Source: a virus
Virus record (IMG/VR): IMGVR_UViG_3300043395_001560
Coordinates: 1 to 30,082 of that record
Strand: one strand, 5' to 3'
DNA length: 30,082 nucleotides
Positions 9,081 to 30,082 of the stretch are shown here, piece by piece. Position numbers and translations under genes: made by a program. The number at the start of each line of letters is the position of its first letter. Positions within the stretch are counted from its first letter, which is position 1. The notes under the pieces were generated by a model. The model searched no databases. It saw only the letters and a list, made by a program, of their open reading frames with translations, and was not told the DNA's origin.

Positions 9081-9515
9081 TTAGGAGAGCAAAGTGTTTT
9101 TGTGCTTCTGGAAAAATGCGAAGCGGTCTTCGCCTTCCAGTGTCGCATAGTGCGCCTTGATTTGCGTCGGCGTATTGAGTTCGGTCGCGCCGGTGGAGTC
9201 CTGTTTGATTGGTGCTTTCGCGCCAAAGCGTGCGCCGGTTTCGCGGGCCTTTGCCGCTTCGAGCTTCGCGTCATCGCGTGCTTTTTCGGCTTCGAGCTTC
9301 GCGGCTTCTGCGGCTTCGAGCTTCGCGGTGAGGTCAGCGTTTGCAGCTTCGGCAGTTGCGAGCTTTGCGGTTGCTTCGTTCGTCGCGGTGTTCGCGGCTT
9401 CGATGTCTTTCTGCGTCCCGGCGATGATAGCCTTTGCAGCGTCGAGTTCATTTGTCAGGCTCACGATTTGCGCGGCCTTTGCGTCAATGTCAGAAGCGAG
9501 TTCGGAAATGCTCAT
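9081..9515 (-). CDS. Capsid scaffold protein
   Basis: 144 residues starting MSISELASDIDAKAAQIVSL. I chose this ATG because it overlaps the protease stop as ATGA. Residues from about 10 to 105 form a nearly unbroken Ala/Glu/Lys/Leu coiled coil with heptad-like repeats such as AKLEAAEAAKLEAEKARDDA. The basic-to-mixed C-terminus (TQIKAHYATLEGEDRFAFFQ) may bind the shell. Scaffold proteins guide procapsid assembly and are then removed, usually by the head protease encoded just before. Helical content, size and position between protease and capsid support the call strongly. Confidence 0.85.
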   Translation of the reverse strand: MSISELASDIDAKAAQIVSLTNELDAAKAIIAGTQKDIEAANTATNEATAKLATAEAANADLTAKLEAAEAAKLEAEKARDDAKLEAAKARETGARFGAKAPIKQDSTGATELNTPTQIKAHYATLEGEDRFAFFQKHKNTLLS

Positions 9516-17736: not shown

Positions 17737-18416
17737 ATCCCTCCCTCCGCGTGAAGATGGTCAATCCATCCTGCGTGCATTTCGTAAAGTTCCCTATGGT
17801 TTGATATAACGAGCTGCTCGATATTGTTGCAGCTCCTGAGGTTCGCCGATGACTCGATAACTATCCGATCGTCCGGTGCGAATTCAAACGAAATGATTTT
17901 TGCATGTGTCCGGCTTGCAATAAGTGACTGCCCCCTTTCCGCGAATTCGTTTTTCGCGAATTCGTAAAGCGGCCTGCTTGTATCGCGGAAGTAAATACAA
18001 CAGGCAATCGAAATTGCCTTAATGTCTCCGTCGTCGAACATTCGGCACATTTGCCGGATGTTCGACTTGTTAAATCCAAGGGTTGCAATTCTGACTCGTT
18101 CGCAATCTCTGCCTGCAAGCGCGATGATTGCCGGAATGATGTCGCTGCCGTTGTAGTCTCCACCCATGAGGCAATGGAACGATTCATCTTTTTCGGGAAG
18201 TCTTTTGAATTGCTTTTCTGCCGCAGTGATTCTCTGGAAATCAAAAAGTTCACGACGCGAAACCTTGCGTGCGGTTTTTAATTTCATACCGCTTATTCCG
18301 ATCGCTTCTGCCGGCGGAATCTTGCCGAGTTCTTTTTCCAGCAAATCAACTTCATCCGGAGATAAATCGGCAATCATTTGCGCGATCTCACTATCAATGT
18401 TATCCCGATGGATCAT
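17733..18416 (-). CDS. PLD-like (HKD) domain protein
   Basis: 227 residues starting MIHRDNIDSEIAQMIADLSP. The C-terminal part has a phospholipase D-type catalytic signature: HAK (His171, Lys173) in ASRTHAKIISF, then ESSANLRSCNNIEQL at 188-202 with the invariant-like Ser-Ala-Asn-Leu and Asn-Glu. PLD-type proteins often act as nucleases, usually as dimers because each has one HxK. The domain before it (VRIATLGFNKSNIRQMCRMF) may be the beta/alpha half. A weak SD (AGGA) precedes the start. It overlaps the small terminase gene as ATGA, so a link to packaging is possible. The substrate is unknown. Confidence 0.75.
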   Translation of the reverse strand: MIHRDNIDSEIAQMIADLSPDEVDLLEKELGKIPPAEAIGISGMKLKTARKVSRRELFDFQRITAAEKQFKRLPEKDESFHCLMGGDYNGSDIIPAIIALAGRDCERVRIATLGFNKSNIRQMCRMFDDGDIKAISIACCIYFRDTSRPLYEFAKNEFAERGQSLIASRTHAKIISFEFAPDDRIVIESSANLRSCNNIEQLVISNHRELYEMHAGWIDHLHAEGGI

Positions 18417-18581
18417 TTTTGATAATTCCTAAGCGTAAAATGCAGTTTTAGGCCAATTGTGAAAAAGTGCAGGGAGAGAACAAGTCCGCAGGCTCTCAAA
18501 AATGAGAATAGATTCCTTATGGGGCGGGCCTGTGTAAACGCATTGCAAAGTTGATTCATATTGTCGGAAAATCTTACACTT

Positions 18582-18875
18582 TCAGCTTTCGGTCAAAATG
18601 TCCAAAATCTGCCGCAAGTCCGCACAAGGCACGGACGCCCGGCCAGCCATGAGTTGCCGCAAGGTTGTCCGAGCAGACTCGATAACCACCTTGCGCGACT
18701 CCGCTAAACGCCTTGCCATGCCGTTGCTGCCCTCCTTCAGCGGTCTACCCCTACGAACGGCGGGAAAGAGCGAAGGATTAGCCTTCCCGCTTCGCCACGC
18801 GGCCATGTAGCAGCCACGGCACAAGCCCCGGCTGAACGTCGGTTTCCCGCATTTGCATTTGAGTTGTTTAGTCAT
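18582..18875 (-). CDS. Small zinc-ribbon protein
   Basis: 97 residues starting MTKQLKCKCGKPTFSRGLCR. The first ~25 residues are a Cys cluster (CKC, then CRGC at about 19-22), like the small zinc-ribbon modules in phage proteins. The rest is basic and helical (ARRLAESRKVVIESARTTLR). I chose this ATG because an SD, GGGAG, lies five bases upstream. The open frame goes further upstream, but those codons cover minigenes and hairpins. The gene begins the unit after the origin-like block. It may be a nucleic-acid-binding regulator. Confidence 0.6.
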   Translation of the reverse strand: MTKQLKCKCGKPTFSRGLCRGCYMAAWRSGKANPSLFPAVRRGRPLKEGSNGMARRLAESRKVVIESARTTLRQLMAGRASVPCADLRQILDILTES

Positions 18876-18879
18876 GCAG

Positions 18880-18895
18880 ACTCCCTTTCGGGAGT
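18880..18895 (-). promoter_or_regulatory. SD-sequestering GAAA-tetraloop hairpin
   Basis: On the minus strand ACTCCC-GAAA-GGGAGT forms a perfect 6-bp stem with a GNRA-type loop. The 3' arm contains the SD (GGGAG) of the zinc-ribbon gene, whose ATG is at 18875. The hairpin would hide the ribosome site unless opened by a ribosome, protein or alternative fold. A second stem (GCCGG / CCGGC) lies just upstream. Confidence 0.6.
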
Positions 18896-18918
18896 TTCGC
18901 CGGGGTTTCACCGGCTCG

Positions 18919-18952
18919 TCAGTGCATTTAGTTGCGCATTTTGCCACCTCCT
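18919..18952 (-). other. Perfect SD with two minigenes (M-R-N-stop, M-H-stop)
   Basis: AGGAGG (18947-18952) is followed after 7 bases by ATG CGC AAC TAA (18928-18939), then directly by ATG CAC TGA (18919-18927). The spacing is ideal, yet the frame is three codons. No longer frame with an ATG uses this SD. The 97-residue gene begins 44 bases downstream of the second stop. This resembles minigene-type or leader-peptide control elements, for example the lambda bar minigenes. Confidence 0.45.
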
Positions 18953-18999
18953 GTTTGCTGGTTTGTTCGCGCCCTCCGGTTCCCCGGCTGACGGTTGAC

Positions 19000-19028
19000 G
19001 TTTTACGCTCTCCCATTCCCCGTGTCAA
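19000..19028 (-). promoter_or_regulatory. Candidate sigma70-like promoter
   Basis: On the minus strand a perfect -35 TTGACA (19023-19028) and a -10-like TAAAAC (19000-19005, 4 of 6 consensus) are separated by 17 bases. It points towards the minigenes, the zinc-ribbon gene and the packaging genes. An AT-rich tract lies just upstream. Whether the host uses this consensus is not known. Confidence 0.4.
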
Positions 19029-19070
19029 AACTTTTTTCAATTATTTTTCATCCCCTCATCCCCACCCGCA

Positions 19071-19334
19071 ACGGCAGCGAGGGACGGGACTACGGCGCGT
19101 ATATATATATACGCGCCTTGCCCTACTGCCGCGGCACGGCAATTGCCGTGATTGCCGTAGTTTTGCCGTTCTGCCGTAACAGCAATGTTATTTTCTCGCA
19201 TTGCCTTGTGTAATAGAGACTTGCAACGGAAAAAGAGCATCGAAAACAGAGCGATTTCAGAATTGCCGTTCATTTGCCCTATCACTTCTGAGATACCCGA
19301 AAAAAGAGGGTTACGGCAATTCCTTCTCTGCCGT
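19071..19334. repeat. Cluster of nine TGCCGT/ACGGCA repeats (putative origin iterons or operators)
   Basis: TGCCGT occurs at 19144, 19153, 19164, 19172, 19264 and 19329; the inverse ACGGCA at 19071, 19136 and 19313. Four copies stand close together at 8-11-base spacing in 19144-19177. Two pairs form inverted repeats: ACGGCAATTGCCGT at 19136-19149 (perfect palindrome), and TTACGGCA / TGCCGTAA at 19311-19336 with a 10-base spacer. Together with the nearby 24-bp palindrome and the AT-rich tract at 19031-19050, this is the layout of an iteron origin or of operators for a phage DNA-binding protein. It lies directly behind the hexameric helicase gene. The interval 18876-19356 holds no convincing gene: a 107-codon frame (19037-19360) runs through the repeats. 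Confidence 0.65.
19094..19117. repeat. 24-bp perfect palindrome with TA core
   Basis: The sequence is GGCGCG, then six TA steps, then CGCGCC, identical on both strands. The GC arms clamp an easily melted or cruciform-prone core. It stands within the repeat block, 19 bases before the palindromic repeat at 19136. It could be a DNA-unwinding element, a cruciform or a binding site. As RNA it would form a strong hairpin without a T-tract, so it is not a standard terminator. Confidence 0.7.
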
Positions 19335-19356
19335 AAAATATAAAGGTGCGTTAAGT

Positions 19357-20853
19357 TCATTTTGCGAGGGTGTAAATGCCGTGCCTGTCCTTGCTTACGA
19401 CTCCGAGCGCGAGCATTTCAGTGATTCTGTCCCGTGCCGTGCGTTCTCCGACGGATTCACGGTGCTGGACGTGCTTGCAAAGCTCCCCGTGCCTCGCTGA
19501 TTCCCGCAGTGGAGTGAAGAAATCGCTGATGATTTCGCGCAGTTGCGCCCGGGTCTTTTCCGCAATCTCGAAGGCGTTGTTCTGCGCTGATACATGCCGC
19601 TTCTTCTCATCACTCCACACGAATGCCGGCGCATAATCCTTCGGGACCGGCTGCTTCCTCGAATGCGCGCTGGTCACATTCGAAACTCCATCCTCGCCCT
19701 TCTCAATCCGCAGAACGTGCGCCGCCTTGCGATAAAGCTGACTGCCAAGATGCCCGCGAGCCTTTGCAATCTGCGACTTCGAGCTGATCGGGTTGAGATG
19801 CAGCACGGTCACAATCCCAATCCGATGCTCCGCCGCAATCGCCATAAGCCACGCAATGATTTCCTGTGCCGCCACCGGGTCGTTTACGTCCGGCACGAAG
19901 TCCGCGATGCCGTCGATAATGAGAGAGTGAACGCCACCGCATACCCGCTTGCCGAGGTCGAGAGCAATCCGAACGCATTCCCGCAACTCTACCAAGGTAA
20001 ACCCTGTGACGCAATAGGACTGTAGCCATCCGGGATACTGCTCCTTTTCGATACCCGCCCGTGCAACGATACGCTCGTTCAGCATGTCGTGGTCGTCGCC
20101 GCTTTGCTCCGTGTCGAGATGGATTATTGCGTGCCCTTCCGGGTTGCGAACGTGCCAGCCGAGGCAATCAGCCGTCGGATCCGCAATGGCCGCCGCGATA
20201 GCTGCCGAAATGAACGCTGTCTTGCCTGACTTCACCTGAGCTTCGACGCAAAGGATGTCGCCGACGAACAAGACAGGCGTCGGCCCGATGCCGTAAATCG
20301 GAACCGCACCTTCGCGCTTCCTGTCAGGTCGAAACATCGCATCCCGCATCTTGGCCCCGATTGGACGACTCCCTTTTCGAGCACGCTTCCCAACCCGCTC
20401 GACAAGCTCATCAGCCAAGTGCGACGGCTGTTCTGTGCCGTCGTAAGCCCGGGCAGCAATCTCCGTGGCATCGGCGATGATACCCCTTGCCGTGGCCTTC
20501 TCCATCACTTCCTCGATGTAATGCTTGGCGTTCGCCGCCGTTGGCAGGAACATGTAGAGCGACGACAGAAACGCTCCACCGCCAACCGCGTCCAATGCCC
20601 CGAGGTCGCGCAGATGCTGATTCAAGGTGATAAACTCAACAGGCTTTCCGCCGGCAATCAGCGCGTCGATTGCACGGAATACCGTCGCATGGGATGGAAT
20701 GTGAAACGCTTCCGCCGTCATGCCGATGGACGCACACAGCGAATGCGTCTCAACCGGCGCAAGCAATAGCGAAGCCAGAACGCCCTGTTCTGCCTCCGGC
20801 GATTGTGGTAAAAGCCGGTGGATGTCAGGCAGGAAGGATATTTTGTTGGTCAT
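19357..20853 (-). CDS. Replicative helicase: DnaB N-domain fused to RepA-like RecA-fold ATPase
   Basis: 498 residues. The first ~110 residues (PQSPEAEQGVLASLLLAPVE, and IPSHATVFRAIDALIAGGKP) match the DnaB N-terminal helical domain. The central ATPase has a Walker A, AQVKSGKT (205-212), AIIHLDTEQSGDD (about 242-254), a Walker B, SLIIDGIADF (310-319), and a HLN motif at 352, with RGHLGSQLYRKAAHV; this is closer to the RepA/AAA_25 hexameric helicases than to classical DnaB. The end (from about 430) looks like a winged helix. It would unwind phage DNA at the fork and recruit primase. The origin-like repeat block lies directly downstream. The leader is A/C-rich and inside the preceding small gene. 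Confidence 0.85.
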   Translation of the reverse strand: MTNKISFLPDIHRLLPQSPEAEQGVLASLLLAPVETHSLCASIGMTAEAFHIPSHATVFRAIDALIAGGKPVEFITLNQHLRDLGALDAVGGGAFLSSLYMFLPTAANAKHYIEEVMEKATARGIIADATEIAARAYDGTEQPSHLADELVERVGKRARKGSRPIGAKMRDAMFRPDRKREGAVPIYGIGPTPVLFVGDILCVEAQVKSGKTAFISAAIAAAIADPTADCLGWHVRNPEGHAIIHLDTEQSGDDHDMLNERIVARAGIEKEQYPGWLQSYCVTGFTLVELRECVRIALDLGKRVCGGVHSLIIDGIADFVPDVNDPVAAQEIIAWLMAIAAEHRIGIVTVLHLNPISSKSQIAKARGHLGSQLYRKAAHVLRIEKGEDGVSNVTSAHSRKQPVPKDYAPAFVWSDEKKRHVSAQNNAFEIAEKTRAQLREIISDFFTPLRESARHGELCKHVQHRESVGERTARDRITEMLALGVVSKDRHGIYTLAK

Positions 20854-20986
20854 TGGTTCGTTTCTGTTCGCTCAAAGTCAACTCCCACTCATCCGCCTCC
20901 TGCCAAGCCCGCTCTGGCGTTCGTCCGAGGGCAATCGCTTCGTCGTAACGGTATTGCCATTCTGTTTGTATTTCTGCGGGGGTCAT
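20825..20986 (-). CDS. Small acidic protein (53 aa)
   Basis: Too short for usual ORF lists. It begins MTPAEIQTEWQYRYDEAIAL and continues GRTPERAWQEADEWE. It is helical and Trp/Glu-rich. Its ATG overlaps the stop of the preceding gene as ATGA, and its last 29 bases overlap the helicase start, so its translation would lead ribosomes to the helicase gene. No family is recognised. Confidence 0.65.
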   Translation of the reverse strand: MTPAEIQTEWQYRYDEAIALGRTPERAWQEADEWELTLSEQKRTNDQQNILPA

Positions 20987-21255
20987 TGGTTGCACTTGCA
21001 GTATTCAGCATTCTCACCGCACGAGCAACCGCGACGGTAATCGCCGGGCGTAAACTCCACCCATCCGCCTTTCTCTTTCGAGACTCGGTGCATTGCTTCG
21101 TAGCATTCAAGATGCTCCTTCACGGTTCCAGCTTCGCCGTAGGCGAACCAGCGATAACGCTTGTATTTCTCGCCAATCTCAATTCGCGTTCCGCACCACG
21201 AGCATGTGTGCTTTTTCTTCGCTACGTGCGTTTCTGTTTGCGATGATGCGCTCAT
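20983..21255 (-). CDS. Small zinc-binding protein
   Basis: 90 residues starting MSASSQTETHVAKKKHTCSW. It has CSWCG at 18-22 and HLEC at 48-51 as one likely Zn site, and a second Cys group at the end (CSCG at 77-80, CKC at 86-88). The region GEKYKRYRWFAYGEAGTVKE between is typical of small phage and mobile-element proteins with a zinc-ribbon. It is coupled by ATGA to both neighbours. It may be a nucleic-acid-binding accessory of the replication unit. Function is unknown. Confidence 0.65.
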   Translation of the reverse strand: MSASSQTETHVAKKKHTCSWCGTRIEIGEKYKRYRWFAYGEAGTVKEHLECYEAMHRVSKEKGGWVEFTPGDYRRGCSCGENAEYCKCNQ

Positions 21256-21973: not shown

Positions 21974-22338
21974 TTGTTTTTTATGGTTCGTTGTAGTTGT
22001 AGGTGTGTTCGTTTGAGTTCCAGAAGTTCGGGCGGACATGTTTCCGCCGTAAGGTTGAGACGTTCGGCGACGTAAGCGTCATCGAGGTTCACGCATCTAC
22101 GGTTTGAGTATCTGCGACGATACGCCAGCTTTACAGGGTCAAGCTTGGCTTTCTGCCATTGCTTTTTCGCTGCACGTCGGCTGCTCGCCCGTTTCCTTTC
22201 GAGCTTCGCAGGGTCGAGCTTTTGCGCGAGGTATGTCCGCCTTGAAGCTGCGCGTGTCTTGGCCTGAAATTCCGCATAACGCACTGGGTCAGCTTTCAAC
22301 TTGGCATACCATCGAGCTTGTCTTTTTGGTGTGCTCAT
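21970..22338 (-). CDS. Small basic protein with a recurring phage C-terminal motif
   Basis: 122 residues, very rich in Arg and Lys. Repeated units of the form KLDPxKLxxRR (AQKLDPAKLERKRASSRRAA and KAKLDPVKLAYRRRYSNRRC) suggest a helical, nucleic-acid-binding protein. The end, LDDAYVAERLNL followed by CPPELLELKRTHLQLQRTIK, is a module I recognise at the C-terminus of many phage proteins of unknown function. It is coupled by ATGA to both neighbours. HNH-nuclease-associated proteins have similar tails, but no HNH motif is present here. Confidence 0.6.
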   Translation of the reverse strand: MSTPKRQARWYAKLKADPVRYAEFQAKTRAASRRTYLAQKLDPAKLERKRASSRRAAKKQWQKAKLDPVKLAYRRRYSNRRCVNLDDAYVAERLNLTAETCPPELLELKRTHLQLQRTIKNK

Positions 22339-23825
22339 CTCCTCAACAGCCGTTGCATCAAATGCCCGGCCTGCTCCTTGGTTATGGTTTCAGCCGACGG
22401 GATTTTGAACCGGCGTAAAACGTCAACTTGCTTCGGTGTCGCAAGCCCCATCTTCTCCCGTTTCTCCAGTCGCTCGATGAGCTTCACGGCGAAGCCACGA
22501 GTGACTCTCACGCAAAAGAAGCCAAGCTTTTCCAGCCGGGCCAACTGCTCTTCGGTCGGCGGTTCAAGCTCCCAAGGCATCGCCGGTTCGTATTCCTGCA
22601 AATCCGAGTCGTGGATACCGACGGCATACGCCAATGGGTCAACAGTTCCCCGAGGTGCCTTCTGCTTTTTCTTCGCTTCATCCAGCTTCCGCGCCAATGC
22701 CTTTTCCACTTCGGCGACGGTGATTGCTTCCGCCTCCGTCAACGTCATACCCTCGTCGAGCTTCGCCTGAAGTATCCGCTTATGCTCCACGTTCGGCGCG
22801 GTGAGGTCCGCCGGCGCACAAAGGTCAATCTCCCCGCAAATCCACATCGGATCGAGAATCAGGCAATCCGTCTTTCCTTCCGATGTCCTCGTTCCACGCC
22901 CCACCATCTGCGCGTAAAGTGCCTTCGACTTGGTAGCACGAAGGACGACAACGCAATCAATGGATGGGCAATCGAAACCCTCCGTGAGTAGGACGGCGTT
23001 GCAAAGTGCGGAGTTGTTTCCGGCCCGGGCAAACGCCTTGATCGCTTCGCTTTTTTCCTTCGGCGAATCCGTCCCGGCAACGTGCCAAGCCGATACGCCA
23101 AGCTCCGAGAGAGCCTGAGCGAACCGCTTGGAAACATCGCAACGCGGCAAAAAAACGATGGCTTTTCGGTCCCATATTTCATCGGCGACGGCTCGCGCCA
23201 GTTCCTCGATGAGCGGGCTGATTGCGTTCGTGTTTTCCTCCACGGTCACTTCACGATTTCCCTTCACAAGCCGGGCAATGTTCACTTCGAGCGCAAGCTT
23301 CTTCGCACGAATCGGCGCAAGATGCCCTTCGTGAATCAACCTCAGAAGCCCAATCTCGAACGCAACGCGCTCGAAGTATTGCCCGAGTGCCCGTGCATCT
23401 GTCCTTGAAGGCGTCGCCGTCACTCCGAGGATTCGCGCATTCGGCCACCGGCTGAGAACGCCCTGCCATTCGTCACTCGTGACGTGGTGCGCTTCATCGC
23501 AGAGGATTAGCGAATACTCCGACTCCAGCCAGTTTGCATTCCTCGCCGATTGAACCGTTGAAAACGTAACCTTCTGTTTTCCTGAACGCTCTCCGAATAG
23601 GTATTCGTCCGCCTGCCAGTTTCCAAACGTCCGCATGGCCTGCGCTATGAGTTCCGTCCGATGCGCGAGAAAGAGCACGGGACCATCCGACGCCTTTGCC
23701 ACGTTCGCCATTATGACGGTTTTGCCTGAGCCTGTTGCCGCAATTCCGAGTTGCCGCTTAGCCGTTTCCCAGCCGAGTGCAACGCTGTCGATGGCGTTGA
23801 GTTGATAGTCGCGGAGGTTGGTCAT
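22335..23825 (-). CDS. SF2 DEAH-type DNA helicase
   Basis: 496 residues with a full set of SF2 motifs: LRDYQLNAIDSV at the start, Walker A ATGSGKT (30-36), DEAH (110-113), TATPSR (136-141), the second-lobe stretch LLTEGFDCPSIDCVVVLRAT (from about 279) and motif VI QMVGRGTR (306-313). The C-terminal ~150 residues form an accessory part. This type is common in phage genomes for replication, repair or recombination. It starts one base after the stop of the helicase-methyltransferase gene, so the two enzymes are co-expressed and may work together. Confidence 0.9.
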   Translation of the reverse strand: MTNLRDYQLNAIDSVALGWETAKRQLGIAATGSGKTVIMANVAKASDGPVLFLAHRTELIAQAMRTFGNWQADEYLFGERSGKQKVTFSTVQSARNANWLESEYSLILCDEAHHVTSDEWQGVLSRWPNARILGVTATPSRTDARALGQYFERVAFEIGLLRLIHEGHLAPIRAKKLALEVNIARLVKGNREVTVEENTNAISPLIEELARAVADEIWDRKAIVFLPRCDVSKRFAQALSELGVSAWHVAGTDSPKEKSEAIKAFARAGNNSALCNAVLLTEGFDCPSIDCVVVLRATKSKALYAQMVGRGTRTSEGKTDCLILDPMWICGEIDLCAPADLTAPNVEHKRILQAKLDEGMTLTEAEAITVAEVEKALARKLDEAKKKQKAPRGTVDPLAYAVGIHDSDLQEYEPAMPWELEPPTEEQLARLEKLGFFCVRVTRGFAVKLIERLEKREKMGLATPKQVDVLRRFKIPSAETITKEQAGHLMQRLLRR

Positions 23826-23826
23826 A

Positions 23827-26022
23827 TCAAAACAACGTCAACTGTGATTTCGCGCCCTTCAGATTCTCGCAGGCTGTTTTGAAATAGGACTCTTTGAGTT
23901 CTGCGCCGACGAATCGCCTGCCTTTTTGAAGAGCGCAATACCCTTCACTTCCGATGCCAGCGAAAGGCGAAAAAACAAGGTCTCCCGGGGCGCTCCATAG
24001 GTCGAGAGCGTTGTTGATCACGTCAAGCTGCAAAGGGCAGATGTGACGTTCATCACGATCCTCTTTTGCTTCGCGCCCGTTGAGGACGTTGCCTTGATCG
24101 ATGTTCATCCATACAGGAGATGCCAATTCCTGCCATCGTTCGAGCGGAATGTCATCGGTCGAGTGAGTGATTGGTTTTGGATTGCGCCCCGGCTTCCTGA
24201 ACACGAGAAGATAATCAGGAGCTCCAACGCGGACGTTCGCCGAATCCGTCCGCAGCGTTTTATAGAGCAGCCCATGAGCCTTTGTGCGCTGCATTTCCGT
24301 CACAGGGTCTTTCCATATCGTGACTTTTGAGTGAAGCAACCATCCGCGATCTCGAAACGCTGTGACGATTGCGCCAGAGAAGTCTTTAAACTCAATATCT
24401 CCATCTTTCCATTTCGTTGCGAGCAAGTCGCAGCAATGCACAGCGCACTCTCTGCCGGGCACGGTCACGCGCATGAGTTCGTCGATGAGGAATCCGAATT
24501 GAACCATGAAGTCATCCATTCCTGCGCAGTTGCCCATGTCTGCCACGTCGTCGGAATAGGTGAATAGATCAGCGAACGGCGGAGAAAAGATTGAGAAGTC
24601 GATTGATTCATCTGCGAGTTTTTCGCGAGCTACGCGCACGCAATCTCCGTGGCAAAGCATCCAATCGGTTCCGTTGGCTTCATTGATGTCTGTTTTCATT
24701 TTTATGGTGTGTGTTTTGTTTTTGAGACTCAGCGCGGCTTGCCGCATTTCGATTTTCATTTCCTCATGCTTCGCCATCTTTTCGACAACGGCATCGAGAA
24801 TCGGGCCTTCCGTGTCAGCTTGCACGATGTAAGCATTTACTTCGCGATGCTGGCCGAATCGGTAATGACGGCGGAGAGCCTGATACAAGTCCTCGAACGA
24901 GTAAGACAGCCCGCAGAAGATTGTATTCGCGCAATGCTGCCAATTCAGTCCTCGTCCAGCGATCTCCGGTTTCGTGATGAGCGTTTTAAACTCTCCGTTC
25001 GAGAATTGATTGAGCCGTTTTTCCTTTGTCTCCGGTTTATCACATCCGCGAATCTCCACAGCATCCGGCAATACTCGTTTCAACTCTTCGGCCTCGTAGT
25101 TTGTATTGCACCATACAGTCCATAGCTCATCCGGTTTTTCAGCGATGATCTCAGCAACGCGTTTGCATCGTGACTCGTTTGTCAGTCGCATTTCCTGATG
25201 CAGATTTGTAGCTGAAAGCGTCGGGTTTCTGAACAGCTCTCCGTCTGCGCGCCCTTCCGTTTGTTCGACGTGAACCATCTCCGTCTTGAAGTTTAGCGAT
25301 GGCAGTAAATAACCGTCATCTGGGAAACCGATGTCTGATGGTTTGGATACGCATGCCGCCCAAGTTGCCACCCACTCCCAGAATGCAGTTTTTGCATGCT
25401 TTTTCAAACGCCAATCTCCCGTGTTGAATGTGTCGTTGATGAAGTATGTTGCGAGCATTTGAGCAGGCGAGCACACTCCGAGGAAGTCTGCATGTTGTCC
25501 CATCTCCGTGTAATCGTTCGGTGCAGGCGTAGCCGTGCAGCAAAGTCGGAATGGAGTCTTTGCAAATGAGTTCGTGAGTCCGATTCGCGTCTTCCCTTGG
25601 AATGATTTAAGGATCGAGCTTTCGTCCAGAACCACGCCCGCGAAAAACTCCGGAGTGAACTTGTCCAGTCGTTCGTAATTCGTGATGTTGATTCCGGACT
25701 GAACTTCCGATTGCTCGCGAACGTGAGTCACTTTGATTCCAAACTTCTCGCCTTCTTTCACGGTCTGCGGAGAAACTGCGAGCGGCGCGAGAATCAAAAC
25801 GCTGCCGCCAGTGTAACGGCAAACTTGATCCGCCCACTCAAGTTGCATTGGAGTCTTGCCAAGTCCACATTCAGCGAACAAGGCGCACCGCCCCTGTTTA
25901 ATTGCCCATGATACAATCAGCTTCTGCCACTCGAAAAGGGGCGCGGTAAATGGCAGTGGTTCAAATCCCGAATGCTTAATGGTTGCACGCTTCGCGGCGA
26001 TTACTTCGTCGTAGGTATTCAT
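23827..26022 (-). CDS. SF2/SNF2-like helicase fused to a beta-class DNA methyltransferase
   Basis: 731 residues. The start at 26022 overlaps the preceding stop as ATGA. The N-terminal half is a helicase: Walker A ECGLGKT (51-57), motif II DESS (133-136), TATPAPND (163-170), and motif VI QALRRHYRFGQ (381-391). The C-terminal part (about 450-731) is a methyltransferase: the catalytic motif SPPF (480-483), near the start of the domain, and the SAM-binding motif FAGIGSEG (687-694) near its end, the order of beta-class N4-cytosine/N6-adenine enzymes. SPPF/SPPY is often seen in m4C enzymes. Residue Met442 (ATG at 24699) follows an A/C-rich leader-like stretch, so a separate methyltransferase may also be made. 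It could protect phage DNA from restriction. Target sequence is unknown. Confidence 0.88.
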   Translation of the reverse strand: MNTYDEVIAAKRATIKHSGFEPLPFTAPLFEWQKLIVSWAIKQGRCALFAECGLGKTPMQLEWADQVCRYTGGSVLILAPLAVSPQTVKEGEKFGIKVTHVREQSEVQSGINITNYERLDKFTPEFFAGVVLDESSILKSFQGKTRIGLTNSFAKTPFRLCCTATPAPNDYTEMGQHADFLGVCSPAQMLATYFINDTFNTGDWRLKKHAKTAFWEWVATWAACVSKPSDIGFPDDGYLLPSLNFKTEMVHVEQTEGRADGELFRNPTLSATNLHQEMRLTNESRCKRVAEIIAEKPDELWTVWCNTNYEAEELKRVLPDAVEIRGCDKPETKEKRLNQFSNGEFKTLITKPEIAGRGLNWQHCANTIFCGLSYSFEDLYQALRRHYRFGQHREVNAYIVQADTEGPILDAVVEKMAKHEEMKIEMRQAALSLKNKTHTIKMKTDINEANGTDWMLCHGDCVRVAREKLADESIDFSIFSPPFADLFTYSDDVADMGNCAGMDDFMVQFGFLIDELMRVTVPGRECAVHCCDLLATKWKDGDIEFKDFSGAIVTAFRDRGWLLHSKVTIWKDPVTEMQRTKAHGLLYKTLRTDSANVRVGAPDYLLVFRKPGRNPKPITHSTDDIPLERWQELASPVWMNIDQGNVLNGREAKEDRDERHICPLQLDVINNALDLWSAPGDLVFSPFAGIGSEGYCALQKGRRFVGAELKESYFKTACENLKGAKSQLTLF

Positions 26023-26264
26023 TTCCTCAACTCCTCCAGTTCCGCTTCTTCGAGTTCCGCCGTCGCCTCTTCGAGCTTCATACGAGCCTCGTTGATCTCC
26101 CATTTCAGCGGTGCCGGACACTTGTCATATTCCGGCGACGTGTCGCGAAGTCGAGTGACTTCCGCCTCTGCTTTTTCGACGGCGAGCCGTGCGGCACGGA
26201 GTCTGTTCGGTTTTGTCTCCGGAAAGTCGGAGAATAGTGGTTCGTGGTCTGTGGTCATGTTCAT
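26019..26264 (-). CDS. Small charged helical protein
   Basis: 81 residues from the ATG at 26264 (a second ATG, two codons later, is equally possible). It is Glu/Ala/Arg-rich, with a coiled-coil stretch (RLRAARLAVEKAEAEVTRLR) and a second helix (MKLEEATAELEEAELEELRK). The leader is A-rich (CGAACAGAAAAATGAAC). It opens the unit after the structured interval and overlaps the helicase-methyltransferase start as ATGA. It may be a binding partner of that enzyme; function is unknown. Confidence 0.55.
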   Translation of the reverse strand: MNMTTDHEPLFSDFPETKPNRLRAARLAVEKAEAEVTRLRDTSPEYDKCPAPLKWEINEARMKLEEATAELEEAELEELRK

Positions 26265-30059: not shown

Positions 30060-30082
30060 GTTTTCTGTTTTGGTGTTGGTTG

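Follow-up and report, generated by a model that had tools for sequence, protein, structure and literature searches.

A repeat array with a TA-centred palindrome downstream of a phage helicase gene as a putative replication origin, probably read by the helicase itself

Nine copies of a hexamer are crowded into the non-coding DNA that follows a viral helicase gene, raising the question of whether they mark a replication origin and, if so, which protein reads them. The window analyzed here is the whole of the 30,082-nt viral contig IMGVR_UViG_3300043395_001560 (positions 1 to 30,082), whose main genes are all on the minus strand. A sequence-only reading of this DNA had proposed a putative iteron origin and had found no initiator with a matching domain. 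From sequence comparisons and a structural model, we estimate a probability of about 0.82 that the segment 19071-19336, including a 24-bp palindrome, is the phage replication origin and is read by the neighboring helicase, P0001.

All nine TGCCGT copies that had been reported in about 265 bases were recovered as exact matches spanning 19071-19334. They are located in a 481-bp gap (18876-19356), the largest internal gene-free gap of the window according to our own choice of ORFs, between the helicase stop codon (19357-19359) and a small basic gene (18582..18875, minus strand). As had been claimed, the array directly follows the gene of a DnaB-N/RepA-like helicase, with 22 bp between stop codon and array. 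Starting from the stop codon, the copies are found at 19329..19334 (+), 19313..19318 (−), 19264..19269 (+), 19172..19177 (+), 19164..19169 (+), 19153..19158 (+), 19144..19149 (+), 19136..19141 (−), and, beyond the 24-bp palindrome, 19071..19076 (−), and a tenth copy is present at 19377, inside the last codons of the helicase gene. The four tandem copies, described as spaced by 8-11 bases, are separated by 9, 11, and 8 bases. A 107-aa ORF overlapping the array (19037-19360) gave no family match and was not counted as a gene.

When the gap 18876-19356 was shuffled 2000 times with its dinucleotides preserved, ACGGCA (TGCCGT on the other strand) was found in 0.3 copies on average and never in more than 3, and a 6-mer of any kind reached nine copies in 9 of the 2000 shuffles. 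The chance rate of one copy per about 2 kb given by the sequence-only reading was too low, the actual background being about 1.7 per kb, with 61 copies in the window compared to 22.6 expected. Beyond the array there are 52 copies, 40 of them on the plus strand, and we read this window-wide excess as codon use of the minus-strand genes. Chance or codon use was also considered as the cause of the array itself and rejected: TGCCGT is enriched genome-wide, yet this leaves nine copies in a non-coding gap unexplained. Another hexamer, CGAAGC, also forms a nine-copy cluster (9119-9378), within a coding repeat. A search of viral contigs with an exact 23-mer of the array returned no match, and an Rfam scan yielded only a sub-threshold hammerhead match (E 0.38), which was dropped.

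Beside these copies, the announced 24-bp palindrome proved to be perfect (GGCGCGTATATATATATACGCGCC, 19094-19117). It starts 239 bp past the helicase stop codon, has G+C arms, a (TA)n centre, and no unpaired loop, and is the predicted site of melting or extrusion. Eight copies of the repeat are on one side of it and one on the other; with the in-gene copy included, seven forward and two reverse copies precede the palindrome and one reverse copy follows it. The two inverted-repeat pairs were also found: a 16-bp palindrome (CACGGCAATTGCCGTG, 19135-19150), of which the copies at 19136..19141 and 19144..19149 are the left and right halves, and the pair TTACGGCA/TGCCGTAA (19311-19318/19329-19336), formed by the two copies nearest the helicase. 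An AT-rich tract had been noted as well; the GC content is indeed lower in the array, but mildly so (49% versus 58% in the helicase gene). Cumulative GC skew, one of the checks suggested by the sequence-only reading, did not reverse at the array, and this counts against an origin.

The pair nearest the helicase can fold, on the coding strand and directly past the stop codon, into a terminator-like hairpin with a T run behind it (19311..19336, minus strand), a weak signal by itself given that two terminator-like sites were found and shuffles gave a mean of 2.0. This hairpin, together with the fact that winged helices are common in repressors, would fit a role of the repeats as operators, at which a phage regulator, perhaps P0001 through its own winged helix, controls transcription of the operon, the hairpins being terminators. 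However, the array is 3' of the helicase gene, and in relatives mostly right at the stop codon, the centre of the main palindrome is TA-rich and the T run of a terminator is missing, and no promoter-like site was found between 18300 and 19700. We therefore regard operators as an unlikely explanation when taken in place of an origin, although an operator role could coexist with an origin role.

The helicase P0001 (498 aa, 19357..20853, minus strand) contains a DnaB-N domain (residues 15-118, Pfam PF00772, E 6e-21), a RepA-like/AAA_25 ATPase (about residues 185-415, with a weak AAA_25 match, E 0.014), and, at about residues 424-498, a C-terminal winged helix first spotted by eye in alignments. 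Pfam detected neither a SaPI-type domain (DUF927, Primase_Cterm/D5) at E ≤ 1 nor a Prim-Pol domain in this protein. Elsewhere in the window, a 764-aa protein that joins helicase and DNA methylase domains is encoded at 23827-26121, and a second helicase adjoins it at 22335-23825. P0001 alone as a query retrieved no relatives from viral contigs and genome contigs, and alignments were needed. Among named phages, P0001 matched 81 records and a Prim-Pol relative (L166) matched 36, none of which covers 80% of the query, and thus no isolated phage suitable for a test was found among them. A DNA-level search of 18000-21000 in phages gave no match. The genes of the Akkermansia phage Chambord are in a similar order, but this phage has neither a match to P0001 nor a strong array.

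The relatives retrieved with alignments share a common layout: the helicase stop codon is followed by an array of 6-8 bp repeats and by a palindrome or hairpin with G+C arms and a TATATA-like centre, around which the repeats are oppositely oriented. The closest ATPase in the first alignment scan (L082) belongs to a protein with AAA_25 in which Prim-Pol replaces DnaB-N, and at its stop codon a 24-bp palindrome (CAGGCCGTATATATATACGGCCTG) is surrounded by ACCCTC repeats, ten copies in the two orientations within 127 bp. Only five perfect palindromes of at least 24 bp occur in the 1.56 Mb compared, and those of the window and of L082 share the form CG(TA)nCG. An array was present at the stop codon in 13 of the 15 loci retrieved with the L082 protein, L082 included, and absent from L174 and L175. 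A 44-bp perfect palindrome with a (TA)n centre was also seen upstream of the helicase gene in a Bacteroidetes contig (L195:1263-1306).

A scan of genome contigs with the helicase alignment and a further viral scan added loci from Verrucomicrobiota and Bacteroidota. When a 460-bp segment (from 60 bp ahead of the helicase stop to 400 bp past it) was examined, a 6-mer array with P < 1e-8 was detected in 20 of 123 non-redundant loci compared to 13 of 1315 control windows from the same loci. Twenty-one genome-contig loci were assigned by us to Verrucomicrobiota from the genera in their record titles. Directly downstream of the helicase, 15 of the 20 evaluable loci among them carry an array at P < 1e-5, and a G+C-armed, AT-centred hairpin with a score of 5 or more is present in 16/20, versus 27/604 control windows. 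Among the 38 other genome-contig loci, 35 were evaluable, of which 7 had an array (P < 1e-5) and 5 a hairpin (score 5 or more). In a set of 31 loci, chosen because they had arrays or because their helicase was related, hairpins with a score of 12 or more were found in 26, versus 15/334 control windows; the scoring rule missed L082, though its palindrome is visible. In 27 of 29 loci, the closest repeat on one side of the hairpin and the closest on the other are on opposite strands. The two exceptions include the window, where both of these copies point the same way and the array is less symmetric than most. Arrays of TGAGAA or CCTAAA follow a related helicase in the Bacteroidota loci L225, L226, and L227 and may be origins of this kind. 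In a relative with a 56% identical Sak4, an eight-copy AGGCCA/TTGGCC array (L004:2983-3119) is located near the integrase gene and upstream of the Sak4 gene, with no helicase adjoining.

The layout is kept between these elements and the repeat sequence is not. In addition to the ACGGCA of the window, the repeats include ACCCCG, ACCCTC, AGTCTC, CCGTCA, GGTTCA, GTGCCA, GGTGCA, TACCCT, ACCTAC, GGGACA, CGGGAA, CGTGTC, CTATCA, and CCCTGC, or about 14 kinds rather than 15 because TACCCT and ACCCTC overlap, and most loci have 5-13 copies per array. None of the loci compared carries the repeat sequence of the window itself. The sequence-only reading had named the absence of the repeats from close relatives as a refutation of an origin, which is misleading since it is the layout that persists, with repeat sequences that change. 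The two closest contigs, with a 98% identical terminase, end before the array region and thus neither support nor refute an origin.

The helicases in these loci differ at their N-termini. Of 33 scanned, 32 have AAA_25 (P0001 itself just misses the cut-off of 0.01), 11 Prim-Pol, 8 BT4734-like_N, and 4 DnaB-N, so that window-type DnaB-N helicases are a minority among the relatives. In Chthoniobacter flavus (L185), a further DnaB-N type in which the DnaB-N part and the ATPase are in different frames, seven ACACGG copies and a hairpin (TTTTGCCCATGTATATAGGGCAAAA) directly follow the stop codon. Another DnaB-N locus, L239, is weak (array P 4e-5, palindrome about 320 bp past the stop), and a third, L237, which matches P0001 from residue 70, has no array at the stop. 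The same absence was noted in L174, L189, L229, L234, and L236, among others, and L183 offers no downstream sequence. In L238, also of the DnaB-N type, a strong ATTGCA/GTGCAA array is found 1.6 kb downstream (L238:7046-7235) and not at the stop.

These relatives also bear on whether the array could be a packaging (cos-type) site. Two contigs that are not the same, L002 and L003, with 98% identical terminases, share an exact end at window position 18486, 0.6-0.85 kb away from the array. There, 52 bp (18435-18486) are conserved, though the flanks are not, and 18486 may be a physical (cos) end of virion DNA. However, the array is on the far side of 18486 from the terminase genes, and arrays accompany the helicase in relatives, including genome-contig loci in bacteria; packaging at the array is therefore very improbable. 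L003 also runs past base 1 of the window for about 2.6 kb (L063:4316-6944) and re-enters at base 30082, which points to a probable circular closure of the genome, at about 32.7 kb. By eye, the additional piece contains a peptidase-like lysis gene.

The identity of the reader was approached through the variation of the repeats. Across 31 loci, repeat similarity was correlated, with ATPase identity removed, with similarity in the recognition-helix region (partial r 0.43, P 0.0002), and the corresponding value for the ATPase given the helix was 0.13 (P 0.016). After thinning to an ATPase identity below 65% (n = 16), the helix given the ATPase retained 0.38 (P 0.0006) and the ATPase given the helix dropped to −0.04 (P 0.63). 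These P values derive from Mantel permutations, which are not tree-aware and remove shared ancestry only partly, with seed repeats chosen after the arrays had been seen and loci picked by eye among those with arrays. The Bacteroidota arrays L217 and L225-L227, the near-duplicates L171-L173, and L251 and L238, whose arrays are away from the stop, were left out, and L248 was kept though its array is some 470 bp past the stop. When 71 segments of 22 columns each were scanned, the top six were located at residues 453-496, with a peak at 457-478; the median partial correlation was −0.02. By eye, helices with 'STAED' (L176, L184) pair with ACCCCG, 'AKSRV' (L180, L188) with GGTGCA, 'MQR' (L190, L199, L215) with GGGACA, and 'QK' (L196, L202) with CGGGAA. 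In the sequences compared, the repeat thus varies with the C-terminal winged-helix domain of the helicase and not with its ATPase domain, which makes the helicase itself a likely initiator.

An AlphaFold2 model of residues 413-498 built from a 49-sequence alignment reached a pLDDT of 83, and a single-sequence model of P0001 only 36. The former shows the order helix-strand-helix-helix-strand-strand, and comparison with the PDB returned many winged-helix proteins (YodB, CadC, MecI, BlaI, and IclR types) whose scores are modest (no Foldseek match at E ≤ 0.001; best VIA Z 7.6). A winged-helix fold is likely on account of this secondary structure order, more than of the scores. The segment encoding the domain (19360..19584, minus strand) is the predicted repeat reader, and helix 58-71 of the model (residues 470-483; 19405..19446, minus strand), which falls within the top covariation segments, is the predicted recognition helix. 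Where no matching domain had been noticed before, covariation and model now point to the C-terminal winged helix of P0001 as the probable initiator, rather than a small basic or zinc-binding protein.

Alternatively, the site may be an origin whose repeats are bound by a host DnaA-like protein or by a small basic or zinc-binding phage protein, the helicase being only loaded there. Small basic and cysteine-rich genes do flank the site; the next gene downstream of the array (18582..18875, start inferred by eye) encodes a small basic protein with cysteines, for which family searches gave no match. In contrast, the repeats vary between elements together with the winged helix of the helicase, and binding by a host protein would require the repeat to stay constant. 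Relatives also have another gene at the next position (e.g., HNH in L082). Binding by such a protein thus appears even less probable than an operator function.

An origin read by P0001 builds on the layout, its conservation beside homologous helicases with many different repeat sequences, the winged-helix model, and the covariation between repeat and domain; from these we infer origin activity and, by analogy with SaPI Rep and Cch2, a possible mechanism. The winged helix of P0001 would bind the ACGGCAA/TTGCCGT repeats on both sides of the (TA)n-centred palindrome, and the helicases gathered on either side may bring the AT centre to melt or to extrude as a cruciform. Helicases would then be loaded onto the exposed strands, and the DnaB-N domain may recruit the host DnaG primase.

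The principle is already known, as iterons 3' of a helicase that recognizes them itself in SaPI/PICI and SCCmec Cch2, and as a stem-loop 3' of the replication gene in pRN1. SaPIs and other PICIs are described with short repeats that immediately follow the helicase gene and flank a central melting element, and with a C-terminal helicase domain that reads them (PMC6092414, PMC7581432). The window has its repeats at the same place and a C-terminal domain as predicted reader. However, SaPI Rep helicases are described there as DUF927 or Primase_Cterm/D5 types (PMC7581432), whereas DnaB-N, Prim-Pol, or BT4734-like_N is joined here to AAA_25, and the centre is a G+C-armed palindrome instead of an AT-rich stretch. 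For SCCmec, the same source places a putative origin with 5-nt direct repeats just downstream of the cch2 helicase gene and reports measured binding of the isolated Cch2 C-terminal domain to it (PMC7581432). The position of the repeats is similar here, and reading by the C-terminal domain of P0001 is predicted from sequence; the helicase family is another one, and there are three repeats in that origin versus 5-13 in most of our loci.

The plasmid pRN1 has a stem-loop downstream of ORF904, a replication gene with Prim-Pol, helicase, and winged helix, and a dispensable terminator in between, an arrangement also proposed for phage BIP-1 (PMC4234260). The window likewise has a palindrome downstream of its replication gene, a terminator-like hairpin between the two, and a predicted C-terminal winged helix. 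Unlike ORF904, which that account describes with a superfamily 3 helicase and a looped stem of about 100 nt, no repeat motif having been identified there (PMC4234260), P0001 has neither Prim-Pol nor a superfamily 3 helicase (L082 has Prim-Pol with AAA_25), and its palindrome has no loop. In RSF1010, a separate helicase, RepA, is described as working at an iteron origin (PMC4234260). The RepA-like fold of P0001 is our own reading, and, unlike the three proteins RepA, RepB', and RepC, of which RepC reads the repeats, recognition here seems to reside within the helicase. Within a limited literature search, no description was found of this helicase family with the palindrome-repeat layout and the covariation of repeat and helix in Verrucomicrobiota elements.

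Taken more broadly, and at what we judge to be even odds, these loci would represent an additional class, assembled separately, of replicative helicases that read origins across Verrucomicrobiota phages and other mobile elements. In this class, a winged helix carried by a DnaB-N, Prim-Pol, or BT4734-like helicase would read hypervariable 6-8 bp repeats around a palindrome, with repeat and recognition helix changing together as a swappable specificity code. If so, this code would keep related elements in one cell from firing each other's origins. With these results, an origin and its reader can be predicted for a large group of integrated elements and uncultured phages. They also suggest that the layout described as unique to PICIs has arisen around a different family of helicases as well. 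The approximately 14 repeat sequences with their matching recognition helices offer a natural collection of cases for studying how winged helices select their DNA and how origins are kept separate between replicons.
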